From Candidatus Thorarchaeota archaeon (GTDB lineage Archaea > Asgardarchaeota > Thorarchaeia > Thorarchaeales > Thorarchaeaceae), in contig SHMX01000004.1 of NCBI GenBank assembly GCA_008080745.1, forward strand, positions 62,001 to 126,000: 64,000 nucleotides of DNA. Direction: 5' to 3'. Below are positions 5,451 to 18,494 of this stretch, piece by piece. Both the position numbers and the translations under genes were made by a program. The notes under the pieces were generated by a model. It had not been told where the DNA came from and ran no database searches. It saw nothing but the letters and a program-made list of their open reading frames with translations. Position 1 is the first letter of the stretch. Each line of letters opens with the position of its first letter.

Positions 5451-7397
5451 GTGCAAAAAAAATTGAGCGGATCCGGTTCAGGCGATATCAAGCAGGGAAC
5501 TATTGCTAAATTCATGAGAAAAAGGACTCAACTAGTTGGTTTTGAAACTGGTTTAAACAAACATACACAATATGCAATCGAGTTTCTTGATAATGCTATC
5601 GACGCATTGGAAAGTTGGTGGTGGAAGACTAAGAAGAGACCACGATTACCGGATCAATTAGAAGAGAAGTATGTCGAGGAAATTCGTGAGAAACTAAAAG
5701 ATGAAGTCTATGATTCAATATCTCTGAGTAAGAAATTGGAGAAGAAAGTTCGCGCTGGAAAACCAGTTGATATCCCCGTTAGGAAAAAAGAATCTCTTGA
5801 TGACCGAGTTACACGATTTCGAAAATTCCTGATGCCCTTTAGGGGGATGATTAACCGACGAGAACCCCTTGTTGTAATTCAATTAACTGAAGTTTTCATG
5901 CCCGATCTGATTCCACTTGATGATGAAGAAGGATTCAAAGTCTACGAGTTTACCTGTTTTGATAATGGCGTTGGAATGGTTCCCTCTGATTTGGAAAAGT
6001 TTGGAATATATCTGGCGTCAAGCAAATCAGAAAAATTACGTCAAACAAGAGGTAGTCAAGGATTTGGCTCACCGTCTGCATTCAGTGACGCACAAAATAC
6101 TACGGGAAAACCAATTTTTACAATCTCACAACGGTTTACCGCGAAAAAAGCATCTGTTGCTGATTTTTACACTACTACTTCGAATACGAAGGATTATGTG
6201 GCTGGACCTATTCAGATGGAGTTACCTTTCAAACATGGTACATACATCCGTTTGAATTATCTAAATATCCAATACCGTCGAGGATATGCTGACACATATG
6301 CCGAGATGGCGTCTCTATTGAATTCTCATGTAACTATAGTGTTCATAGATCCTTATGGCGATGTGCATATCTATCCTCGGAGAGTCAACAAATTTCCTGA
6401 AGAGCCCAAGTATGCCCAACCCCATCCTGCTAGCATTCGTATTGGAGAATTTCAAGATCTATTACGTGAAACGACCGAAGACTCACTCTATGGTTTTCTA
6501 ACAAAAGCATTTACCCGACTAAGTGCAGCAAAGGCAAAATCAATCATAAAAGCGACAAATAAGGAACTTCGAAAACGCCACCAAGACACAATATCAACAA
6601 GAACTCCAACAGAATCACTTTCGAAACTTGAGGTAGAATTACTTTACAAGAACTTCTCAAGTGAAGATTATATTGCACCCCCAACTGATACTGTTGTACC
6701 CGTTGGAGAGGAGGTTTTCGAGCAAACAATCCAGATGGCATATAATCCCGAATTTGTCTGTGCTGTAACGAGAAAACCAACTTCCGGGAAGGGGTTGTCT
6801 TTTGCAGTTGAGGTCTGCATTGCATATGGTGGAGAAATCAAGCCAGCCACCTCTGCGACTATGGTTTTATGGCGTTTTGTTAACCGGGTTCCAAAGCTCA
6901 GGGATAATAGTGATTGTGCAACTTGGAAAGCCAGTACTATGGTGAACTGGCGTAATTACAAAGTGAAAACATTTGACAATGGTATTCCACGAGGTCCGAT
7001 TATGGTTTTCATTCATGTCTGCGGTGCTTATGTTCACGTTATGTTCAAGGGTCAGAGTAAACAAGCTCTAGCAGAAGATGAGGTATTGCTTAAAGAAATC
7101 AAGTTAGCTCTAGAACAAGCCGGTCGAAAATTTAGAAGGTTCATCACCAAGAGAGAACGAGCTAAAAGAAAGGCTAAACGTGCTGGAGTCCTTTCTATGT
7201 ATGCTGATCAGTTTGCAGAGAGTCTAGTTTCAATTGTCAACTCCGCGGACTCAAAGTCAAATTATGATGCTGAAATAGTGGCAAGCCGATTGAGAAGCTC
7301 GATTGCTGGATATGATAGTCACGTTGAGGACGATGATGAAGAAGAGGAGGAAGAAGCAGAAGACGAAAAAGAACTAATTGGAGATGATTCCGATTAG
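5451..7397 (+). CDS. top6B: DNA topoisomerase VI subunit B
   Basis: ATPase subunit of the type IIB topoisomerase that relaxes and decatenates DNA together with Top6A. The GHKL fold is clear: EFLDNAIDA (E44, N48), FDNGVGM (D171) and GSQGFGSPSA near 200. The transducer segment KGQSKQALAED carries the switch lysine. Residues ~54-150, between the N box and the DNGxG motif, are longer than usual and rich in Lys/Arg, an apparent insertion. The last 25 residues are an acidic tail. Length is 648, against ~530-560 for many archaeal homologues. The start GTG has no clear ribosome site and fits a near-leaderless transcript. top6A follows after 14 nt. Confidence 0.95.
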   Translation: MQKKLSGSGSGDIKQGTIAKFMRKRTQLVGFETGLNKHTQYAIEFLDNAIDALESWWWKTKKRPRLPDQLEEKYVEEIREKLKDEVYDSISLSKKLEKKVRAGKPVDIPVRKKESLDDRVTRFRKFLMPFRGMINRREPLVVIQLTEVFMPDLIPLDDEEGFKVYEFTCFDNGVGMVPSDLEKFGIYLASSKSEKLRQTRGSQGFGSPSAFSDAQNTTGKPIFTISQRFTAKKASVADFYTTTSNTKDYVAGPIQMELPFKHGTYIRLNYLNIQYRRGYADTYAEMASLLNSHVTIVFIDPYGDVHIYPRRVNKFPEEPKYAQPHPASIRIGEFQDLLRETTEDSLYGFLTKAFTRLSAAKAKSIIKATNKELRKRHQDTISTRTPTESLSKLEVELLYKNFSSEDYIAPPTDTVVPVGEEVFEQTIQMAYNPEFVCAVTRKPTSGKGLSFAVEVCIAYGGEIKPATSATMVLWRFVNRVPKLRDNSDCATWKASTMVNWRNYKVKTFDNGIPRGPIMVFIHVCGAYVHVMFKGQSKQALAEDEVLLKEIKLALEQAGRKFRRFITKRERAKRKAKRAGVLSMYADQFAESLVSIVNSADSKSNYDAEIVASRLRSSIAGYDSHVEDDDEEEEEEAEDEKELIGDDSD

Positions 7398-7411
7398 GAG
7401 GATGCCCTATC

Positions 7412-9979
7412 GTGGCCAGGAAAACGAAATCAAAGACCGTTCAATCTACACTTGGAGATTTGGTAGAAACCGAGTCTAAAACAGATTCAAAGAAGGGAAA
7501 AAAAACCATGAGTCGAAAAAAAGCAACTAAATCAGAGAAAACCACCTCCAAGCTTGACATGAAGAAACTACCTGGAGTTGGGGCAAAAACGCGAGATAGT
7601 CTCATTGAATCTGGTTATAGTACTGTTGAAAAGATAGCGAAATCTAAACCTGCCACCATCTCCAAGAAGGTTGATGGCATAGGAGAATCTACTGCTGAAA
7701 AAATAGTCACAGCAGCTAAAGATATGATCAAGGCAAGTAAACCCGACAAGAAAACCAAAAGGAAGAAACCATCCAAATCAAAGAAAACCACCTCCAAGTT
7801 CGATATGAAGAAACTACCTGGAGTTGGAGAAAAGACTCGTGATAGCCTCATTGAATCTGGTTATAGTACTGTTGAAAAGATAGCTAAAACAAAACCTGCC
7901 ACCATTTCCAAGAAGGTTGATGGCATAGGGGAATCTACTGCTGAAAAAATAGTCACAGCAGCTAAAGATATGATTAAAGCAAGTAAATCCACTAAGAAAA
8001 CTACCAAAAGTAAAAAATCCACTAAATCCAAACCTTCTTCGAAAGTAGATATCAGTCTGGATGAGTTACCTGGGATTGGTTCCAGCACGAAAGAAAAGCT
8101 AATCGAAGCTGGTTATGATTCTATTGATAAAATCGCTTCCGCTGAAACTAGCACTCTTGCTAAAAAAGTTGAAGGGGTAGGCAAAAAAACCGCTACAGAT
8201 GCTATTGCTGAAGCCAAGAAATTAATGAAGACAGACAAACCCCAACCAAGTAGAAAGAAGAAGACAAAGCCAAAGGAATCAGCATCCAAACCCTCACCTG
8301 ATAAGAAATTACTTTTGAAAGATTTACCAGGAATAGGAAAGAAGACTGCTGAAAAGATGGAGGAATCAGGATATGATTCCGTGGTAAGAGTTGCACGTGC
8401 AACACCGGAATCAATTGCCAAACGCGTCAGTGGTATAAGCACTTCAATGGCACAGGATATTGTTGAGGTAGCAAAGGAGCTCGTCAAAAAACAACAAATG
8501 GATGAGATGGCCCAATCAACTAGTACAGAAACCGTACCCGAAGACAAAGCTGAAATGGAAACTGAAGAAGAATCGAAGAAAGAGAAGAAAACACCAAAGT
8601 CTCGAAAGAGCAAGAAAACAAAGAAAGAGAAAACAAAAGAACCCGAGAGTGATAAATCCAAAGTGACTCCCAAAAAGACCTCAAAGAAGCGAACTAGGAA
8701 AAAGCGGACACATAAAACCCCGCAACAAATCCTCGAAGAAAAGAGATCAAAAATCGTCAAGAAGAAATCAGGATTACCCGTGCCAAAAACCATCGTAGCA
8801 CTTACGAAAGAAATGAAAGACAAATGGGCTGTTGCAGAAGCACGAGAGGCTGCCTTTCAGGCTGGGGAACTTTCTGATGAAGAAATGGCTGGAATAGAAG
8901 AAACAATAGAGGTTCTAGACCTGACTCGCAATGAAACAAAGCAGAAGGTAGTAGAGGTTGCCAGGGAGATTCTTCAAGAAACTATGGTGACTGGTCGTCC
9001 AGCTTTTGAAATTCCGAAGAGGTCATCAAGCAATATAGTTTGGGATGAAATACGAGACCTCCTTCTTCTAGGCATGGATACTGTTTCTCGACCATACCAT
9101 TCTCTTGGGAGTGTTGTTGATGCCACTCGTACTGCGAGAGTAATGGAAATAGTCTTTCAGCTTCTAGAGTCCAACCTTCATGCAACGAAACGAGAAGTAT
9201 TCTATAGTGATGTGAATCTCTTTAGAGATCAGAAATATAGTGATAGAATTCTGGAAGATGTTGCATCAATGCTTCACACAACTCGTGATAGTATACATGT
9301 TGTAGCATCTGCTAGGGGCTCTGCTATGGGTCGAGTAGTAATTAGAGATGGTGGTGATCTCATTGACCTGACAAAAATGGGTACTGGAGGATGGGCAATC
9401 ACTCCTTTCCTTGATCAGGTTGAGATTGTGGAAAGCGATGCTGAATATATTCTACTATCTGAGAAGGACGCCGCTGTAATGCGTCTGGCTGAAGCAAAAT
9501 ATTGGAATCGTGAACCCTGTATTGTATTAACTGGAAAGGGTTCAGGAGATATTGCAACGCGTGCATTTCTTAAGAAGTTAGTTAAGGAGCTTGAAATACC
9601 TGCCTTTGCCCTGGTGGATTCGGATCCTTATGGACACTATATCTATTCCGTTTTCCTTCGTGGAAGTAAAAGATTAAGCTACGAATCTCCTTTTATTGCT
9701 ACTCCTGAATTGAAACTACTTGGTGTGCTTTCAAGAGATCTCGATGAATACAGTATCCCAAAGGCTGTCAGGATACCCATGGAGGCAACTGACATTAAAC
9801 GTGTAAAGGATATGATTGATGAGCCATTTGTAAAGTCCAACAAGGAGTGGGTAAAGGATCTCAAACTCATGCTTAAAATTAAAGAAAAAGCAGAGATACA
9901 AGCTTTTGCCAGTCACTCTTTCAGTTACCTTACAGATGAATATATACCTACCAAGCTTGAAACTGGTGACTGGATTTAG
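7412..9979 (+). CDS. top6A: DNA topoisomerase VI subunit A with N-terminal array of four RadA-like HhH modules
   Basis: DNA-cleaving subunit, homologous to Spo11. The C-terminal ~395 residues are the canonical subunit: winged-helix segment KREVFY with the catalytic tyrosine at 598, Toprim acidic residues at E684 (LLSEKDA) and D736/D738 (VDSDPYG). The first ~460 residues are not part of the usual subunit (~360-390 aa). They hold four helix-hairpin-helix modules at about 42-110, 124-192, 211-272 and 299-358, each with LPG(V/I)G near its start and a second hairpin near its end (GIGEST in modules 1-2, GVGKKT in 3, degenerate in 4), joined by Lys/Ser-rich linkers. A very basic, glutamate-mixed linker spans 359-455. 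The modules closely resemble the N-terminal domain of RadA encoded at 17460. GTG start with GGAGGA 9 nt upstream; cotranscribed with top6B. Confidence 0.95.
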   Translation: MARKTKSKTVQSTLGDLVETESKTDSKKGKKTMSRKKATKSEKTTSKLDMKKLPGVGAKTRDSLIESGYSTVEKIAKSKPATISKKVDGIGESTAEKIVTAAKDMIKASKPDKKTKRKKPSKSKKTTSKFDMKKLPGVGEKTRDSLIESGYSTVEKIAKTKPATISKKVDGIGESTAEKIVTAAKDMIKASKSTKKTTKSKKSTKSKPSSKVDISLDELPGIGSSTKEKLIEAGYDSIDKIASAETSTLAKKVEGVGKKTATDAIAEAKKLMKTDKPQPSRKKKTKPKESASKPSPDKKLLLKDLPGIGKKTAEKMEESGYDSVVRVARATPESIAKRVSGISTSMAQDIVEVAKELVKKQQMDEMAQSTSTETVPEDKAEMETEEESKKEKKTPKSRKSKKTKKEKTKEPESDKSKVTPKKTSKKRTRKKRTHKTPQQILEEKRSKIVKKKSGLPVPKTIVALTKEMKDKWAVAEAREAAFQAGELSDEEMAGIEETIEVLDLTRNETKQKVVEVAREILQETMVTGRPAFEIPKRSSSNIVWDEIRDLLLLGMDTVSRPYHSLGSVVDATRTARVMEIVFQLLESNLHATKREVFYSDVNLFRDQKYSDRILEDVASMLHTTRDSIHVVASARGSAMGRVVIRDGGDLIDLTKMGTGGWAITPFLDQVEIVESDAEYILLSEKDAAVMRLAEAKYWNREPCIVLTGKGSGDIATRAFLKKLVKELEIPAFALVDSDPYGHYIYSVFLRGSKRLSYESPFIATPELKLLGVLSRDLDEYSIPKAVRIPMEATDIKRVKDMIDEPFVKSNKEWVKDLKLMLKIKEKAEIQAFASHSFSYLTDEYIPTKLETGDWI
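7536..7987 (+). repeat. Tandem DNA-level duplication inside top6A
   Basis: The segments 7536-7741 and 7782-7987 (206 bp each, period 246 bp) differ at about 16 positions by my count, about 92% identity. They encode HhH modules 1 and 2. Modules 3 (~8041-8226) and 4 (~8306-8485) are diverged copies. This points to a fairly recent expansion. Confidence 0.85.

Positions 9980-17459: not shown

Positions 17460-18494
<1,035 letters not shown>

Follow-up and report, generated by a model that had tools for sequence, protein, structure and literature searches.

A Helix-Hairpin-Helix Arm on the DNA-Cleaving Subunit of Topoisomerase VI in Thorarchaeota, a Putative DNA-Holding Array

Introduction

Topoisomerase VI (Topo VI), a type II topoisomerase that occurs throughout the archaea, is the closest prokaryotic relative of Spo11. 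Topoisomerase V (Topo V) has been described as unlike any other topoisomerase. Topo VI is assembled as an A2B2 tetramer (PMC7614492). The (HhH)2 domains of Topo V, each built of helix-hairpin-helix (HhH) motifs, wrap around the DNA, apparently as a processivity factor (PMC9489208). HhH motifs grafted to other enzymes conferred processivity and salt resistance, as the work of Pavlov (2002) is cited in PMC9489208. In Thorarchaeota, an N-terminal helical domain on the RNA polymerase subunit Rpo6 was described in 2026 (PMC13257274).

In this study, we analyzed a stretch of 64,000 nucleotides, hereafter the window, in which the gene of the DNA-cleaving subunit of Topo VI (Top6A) carries a long array of HhH modules. 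No description of HhH on Topo VI was found in the papers searched.

Results

Top6A Gene and Its Catalytic Core

The gene of Top6A (DNA topoisomerase VI subunit A) is located at 7412..9979 on the plus strand, starts with GTG and encodes 855 residues. An N-terminal arm of about 500 residues precedes an intact Spo11/Top6A core at residues 503-855 (8918..9976, plus strand), which was recognized by Pfam, curated models and alignment. Pfam showed four HHH_5 (PF14520) stretches (E 7e-44 over the whole protein; 148 bits against a cut-off of 27), together with TP6A_N and the TOP6A-Spo11 Toprim domain (E 2e-53). TP6A_N contains the catalytic tyrosine and the Toprim domain the glutamate and the DxD pair, and 27 Thorarchaeal Top6A orthologues share the residues concerned (Y598, E684, D736 and D738) without exception. 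The best NCBIfam equivalog model for Top6A gave 305 bits against a cut-off of 465. Considering the Pfam domains and the catalytic residues, the core is clearly that of Top6A by its sequence, and we take the low score as a sign of distance from the models. These results confirmed the initial annotation of an 855-residue Top6A in which four HhH modules on lysine-rich linkers stand before a Spo11-like core.

The Shine-Dalgarno site AGGAGG (7396..7401, plus strand) overlaps the stop codon of Top6B and lies 10 nt 5' of the GTG at position 7412. None of the internal start codons in the Top6A frame is preceded by a comparable site, so that only GTG-7412 is strong. In addition, a short N-terminal motif, TVQSTLGDLV (residues 9-18; 7436..7465, plus strand), is conserved in Thorarchaeal orthologues: QxTL (or QxSL) occurs near the N-terminus in 34 of 34 intact Thorarchaeal orthologues versus 1 of 22 other Asgard Top6A. 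Based on this site, the conserved motif and the purifying selection on the modules described below, the start at GTG-7412 stands, and a start codon behind the array was rejected. This N-terminal QxTL(G)(D/E) motif resembles a PIP box but lacks the aromatic pair.

An assembly artefact was also rejected, because a second MAG of the genus has the same four-module arm and arms are present in 32 further intact genes. Topo VIII and Mini-A, which are single-chain or truncated type IIB enzymes borne on mobile elements, were rejected because Top6A and Top6B are separate, full-length and conserved in the family. In a phage collection, no match to this Topo VI was found.

Modules, Linkers and Predicted Fold of the Arm

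The four (HhH)2 modules were all assigned by Pfam and are encoded on the plus strand. Module 1 (residues 49-104; 7556..7723) also has high pLDDT, and module 2 (residues 131-186; 7802..7969) is likewise seen in the AlphaFold model. Module 3 (residues 214-270; 8051..8221) was also modelled with module 4 alone, and module 4 (residues 302-356; 8315..8479) groups with the last modules of two-module orthologues. The linkers between modules have 26-31 residues and a net charge of +8 to +11. The linker from module 4 to the core (8480..8785, plus strand), identified by alignment and AlphaFold, is longer than 100 residues, lysine-rich and mostly disordered, and it ends in KKSGLPVP (SGLPVP at 8768-8785). 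At this position, SGLxVP was found in 31 of 34 Thorarchaeal Top6A and in 0 of 22 from other Asgard archaea.

Modules 1 and 2 belong to two tandem copies of a 246-bp unit, each a module with its basic linker (7517..8008, plus strand). This in-frame duplication shows 88-91% DNA identity, which points to a recent event. The value of dS between the copies is 0.31, whereas it exceeds 1.2 to the orthologues of the sister species; therefore, the copies were made or homogenised within the species.

AlphaFold predicted four folded, all-helical beads (pLDDT mostly 80-97) joined by linkers with pLDDT below 50, and a separate model of modules 3-4 agreed with the whole-protein model. The whole-protein model, built from a shallow alignment, is poor in the catalytic core and was used for the modules only. 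In Foldseek, the single-module model superimposed on the RadA N-terminal domain with 0.7 A over 55 residues at 45% identity. The two-module model gave weak matches, none with E below 0.001, and the top one by E-value was NusA in a transcription-translation complex (5e-3); the fold comparison is accordingly that of the single-module superposition.

Between close species, dN/dS was 0.03-0.16 for the modules and 0.01-0.04 for the core. The modules evolve faster than the core and have invariant Gly, Leu and Tyr positions. Family-wide conservation, purifying selection and the predicted beads confirmed, at the level of sequence and model, that the arm is far beyond chance.

Top6B Partner

The gene of Top6B (5451..7397, plus strand; Pfam) lies directly 5' of Top6A with 14 nt between them, and Top6B is on the same strand as Top6A at every Thorarchaeal locus of sufficient length. 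The protein ends in a strongly acidic tail, here EDDDEEEEEEAEDEKELIGDDSD (about 7325-7394 in the window). Thorarchaeal Top6B tails have a net charge of -8 to -20 over 60 residues, and a DLVAD-like motif is present in 28 of 30 of them versus 0 of 17 in other Asgard archaea. The acidic tail might fold back on the basic arm of Top6A.

Elsewhere in the Asgard archaea, Top6B frames of 1150-1250 residues, about twice the usual length, were observed in Sigynarchaeum, Helarchaeota and Harpocratesius (L098, L101 and L103). These carry inserts before the transducer domain, with a winged-helix-like C-terminal segment in L098 and L103. Pfam gave no name for the extra parts of L098, the one long Top6B scanned.

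Distribution among Asgard Archaea

We surveyed 228 Asgard genomes, and the arm counts are based on 34 intact Thorarchaeal Top6A genes. All 34 carry the arm, with two to seven modules: two in 28 genes, four in three, five in one and seven in two. Complete Top6A frames of this family have about 660-950 residues versus about 360-480 in the listed other Asgard families. Frames of the families outside that list have 354-506 residues, and the 16 of them that were read contained no HhH module. None of the other Asgard families surveyed showed an HhH arm on Top6A; the claim that ordinary Top6A lacks the extension thus held in the families covered. The nearest outgroup, Baldrarchaeum and its relatives (67-68% core identity), has Top6A without the arm. 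Named relatives place the armed family in Thorarchaeota, in agreement with the assignment of the DNA to an Asgard archaeon, and a few MAGs are labelled otherwise, e.g., as Lokiarchaeota. Two short frames were rejected as cases of arm loss, because one (L013) starts 75 bases from a contig edge and the other (L016) follows masked bases.

The genome of the window also contains two further Top6B-Top6A-like pairs without HhH on contigs C2/C3 (L002, 1492-3991, minus strand; L006, 15-2235, plus strand), and an ORF without a Pfam match lies downstream of the L006 pair. At least a second Top6A match is present in most genomes of the Thorarchaeal family.

Top6A of other Asgard families (L056 and L057 of family f27; L291-L304 of f5-f10) carries another kind of domain at its N-terminus, about 80 residues long. 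In f27 (genomes G176 and G178), this domain is clearly ubiquitin/SUMO-like, with matches to Rad60-SLD (E 6e-8) and ubiquitin (E 2e-6) that exceed the Pfam cut-offs. In f7 it is weakly ubiquitin-like (E 1e-3, below the cut-off), and the other families of f5-f10 look similar by eye.

Origin of the Modules

RadA, which had been proposed as the donor of the modules, is encoded at 17460..18494 (plus strand) and has a single N-terminal (HhH)2 domain by Pfam and curated models. On the one hand, the modules are RadA-type in fold, and among curated NCBIfam models that of RadA matches them best (E 1e-22 for two modules). On the other hand, RadA is not their closest relative. We compared 169 modules taken from RadA, eL32, Top6A and further proteins of Asgard genomes. 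With Top6A itself set aside, 51 of the 92 Top6A modules had their closest relative on eL32, 41 on another protein and none on RadA. HEAT proteins and the ribosomal proteins eL32 and eS25 carry modules that are nearer than those of RadA. In the module tree, all RadA domains but one long branch formed their own split (99/96) apart from the modules of Top6A, eL32, eS25 and HEAT proteins. When Top6A and Thorarchaeal RadA were forced to group, the tree was 46 log units worse, but with only 56 columns this was borderline in the AU test (p 0.067). A search with eL32 including its HhH modules reached the Top6A array (E 6e-26), with no RadA locus among the matches listed. A PDB sequence search with the arm found the Topo V HhH array best (E 5e-17), followed by RadA and then haloarchaeal L32e. 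The N-terminus of the RadA in the window is acidic, whereas the arms of Top6A and eL32 share lysine-rich linkers.

The number of HHH_5 matches per genome is 10-29 in Thorarchaea versus 3-16 in the other Asgard genomes tested. Thorarchaea carry HhH_5 with a lysine-rich linker on eL32 (N-terminal), eS25 (C-terminal; Pfam Ribosomal_S25), HEAT-repeat proteins and an Rpb6-like subunit (L003, L142, L150, L004, L007 and L005). A similar fusion to an eL33-like protein was seen by eye in L112 (G062, family f11), where Pfam listed HhH only. Judging from these comparisons, the Top6A modules likely stem from a mobile HhH family of the Thorarchaea and not specifically from RadA.

Array Change, Hairpins and Charge

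The module tree shows lineage-specific clusters of inner modules (for example modules 2-4 of L030, modules 1-3 of L036 and modules 1-2 of the window genus), and in the window genus the last module falls with the last modules of two-module species. This pattern supports lineage-specific duplication inside the multi-module group. The first hairpin reads GhG in 88 of 92 Top6A modules. Of the 31 modules in multi-module proteins, 28 show canonical GhG at both hairpins; for two-module proteins the count is 3 of 56, and their second hairpin usually reads GLS. The net charge of the arm is +25 to +68 with two to five modules, and -9 and -11 in the two seven-module arms. Being net negative, these longest arms are not simple electrostatic tethers.

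Salt and Habitat

The habitat was traceable for three multi-module species and corresponds to a salt lake and hypersaline mats. RBin_111 (WJMJ01), a four-module member of the window genus, has an accession inside the Shark Bay hypersaline-mat range WJIJ-WJMT (PMC7495880). The MAGs TEKIR_12S and TEKIR_14, by name from Lake Tekirghiol with a salinity of 6% (PMC7392546), comprise one with five modules and one with four. AMARA_8, by name from Lake Amara with a salinity of about 1% (PMC8452724), has two.

Multi-module species had the more acidic proteomes among those sampled (Mann-Whitney p 0.0016, with no correction for descent or otherwise). Four multi-module species have 2-4 modules on eL32 versus 0-1 in ten others. 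No clear signal emerged when the charge of the Top6A core (net) served as a proxy for salt. In the tree of Top6A plus Top6B, the multi-module species form a basal grade with one change, and a single clade was not rejected (AU p 0.5). Therefore, the associations with salinity, acidity and eL32 represent a single phylogenetic contrast, and a repeated origin of large arrays in salty lineages, derived from the Top6A-core tree, was withdrawn. The canonical hairpins and the salty habitats of the multi-module species together suggest a salt-resistant grip.

Discussion

We consider it somewhat probable, based on sequence, predicted fold and analogy, that the Thorarchaeal Topo VI arm is a flexible DNA-holding array that resembles the HhH array of Topo V in plan. 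The DNA-cleaving subunit would have gained a flexible N-terminal string of (HhH)2 domains. The module would belong to the Thorarchaeal HhH pool that also supplies eL32, eS25, HEAT proteins and the Rpb6-like subunit, with local tandem duplication changing how many copies there are. Each (HhH)2 domain probably grips the nucleic-acid backbone in a non-specific way, and the linkers are mostly basic and disordered. Considering that Topo VI is an A2B2 tetramer, a holoenzyme would have two arms and 4 to 14 grips. Near the DNA gate, these grips may retain DNA segments or crossings and help the enzyme stay bound to its substrate, so that its action would become processive, as with the (HhH)2 array of Topo V. 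We infer DNA binding by the arm, and processivity and salt tolerance for the enzyme. Since charge-based binding loses strength as ionic strength rises, lineages of salty habitats may rely on many modules with two canonical hairpins in place of long lysine tails.

The main rival to a DNA-holding arm is a protein-docking device, in which the shared HhH module binds a common partner or itself and brings Topo VI to sites of supercoiling at complexes engaged in transcription or translation. We regard docking as unlikely, although several observations fit it. For some (HhH)2 domains the ligand is a protein and not DNA, as with the HhH repeats of NusA, and NusA was the top Foldseek match by E-value, albeit a weak one. 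One genome carries the module family on Topo VI, two ribosomal proteins and the Rpb6-like subunit. Both the QxTL motif in Top6A and the acidic Top6B tail resemble interaction sites, and the seven-module arms are not basic. However, the phosphate-binding GhG pattern is kept in the first hairpin, most arms are strongly basic, and rRNA binding explains HhH on eL32 and eS25 equally well. A slightly fainter candidate is that the arm is mostly a lineage-specific disordered basic tail, whose passenger domains drift in number with little effect on the enzyme. The copy number of two to seven, the degenerate second hairpin in two-module species and the faster evolution of the modules relative to the core would agree with such drift. 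The retention of the arm in every intact gene of the family, the low dN/dS of the modules, their invariant Gly, Leu and Tyr, and the QxTL motif in all intact orthologues argue against it.

The initial annotation proposed that the N-terminal domain of RadA was copied onto Top6A and links the DNA-cleaving subunit to RadA filaments, in the manner of Spo11 and Rad51. The best curated profile, the close superposition and the borderline AU test would favor a copy from RadA. Against this, RadA was closest to none of the 92 modules, its domains formed their own split, and its acidic N-terminus differs from the lysine-rich linkers of Top6A and eL32; the eL32 search also pointed elsewhere. The copy from RadA was rejected as the best explanation on these grounds, the AU test being only borderline, and we consider it very improbable. 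No genomic or functional link between the two proteins was found that would favor tethering, and the Top6A gene adjoins Top6B, about 7.5 kb from radA.

Returning to the DNA-holding arm, a broader reading joins the hosts of the module. One promiscuous HhH and lysine-linker module may be a shared nucleic-acid grip on Topo VI, eL32/eS25 and the Rpb6-like subunit, with copy number and hairpin quality co-tuned to salt. At low salt, there would be few degenerate modules with long lysine tails, and at high salt, many canonical modules with short or acidic linkers. We offer this joint claim tentatively and with more doubt than confidence. The arm and its relatives also reveal a single promiscuous HhH module on the topoisomerase, the ribosome and the RNA polymerase within one Asgard class. 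The arm further poses a clean question, namely whether added HhH grips raise the processivity and salt tolerance of a type IIB enzyme.

In comparison with known systems, the protein resembles canonical archaeal Top6A/Spo11 in its full core, catalytic tyrosine, Toprim acidic residues and adjacent Top6B gene, but differs in about 500 extra N-terminal residues, the curated Top6A models being 354-386 positions long. The N-terminal domain of RadA/Rad51 shares the (HhH)2 fold and sequence pattern, but it is a single copy on a RecA-type ATPase and lies on a separate branch of the module tree. The eL32 protein (L32e model NF009401; Thorarchaeal) likewise has an HhH_5 module with a lysine-rich linker, in tandem in some species; it differs as a ribosomal protein with 0-4 N-terminal modules. 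The N-terminal extension of Thorarchaeal Rpo6, which Pfam reads here as HHH_5, comes from the same lineage, and its host is an RNA polymerase subunit. As in Topo V of Methanopyrus kandleri (type IC), a topoisomerase catalytic domain is joined to a tandem (HhH)2 array, a likeness that consists in resembling sequence and predicted fold. The catalytic domains are unrelated (type IC in Topo V, IIB here), and the Topo V array is C-terminal with 12 domains and partly AP-lyase, whereas the Thorarchaeal array is N-terminal with 2-7 domains and disordered linkers. A class-wide HhH arm on the cleaving subunit of Topo VI converges on the plan of Topo V.
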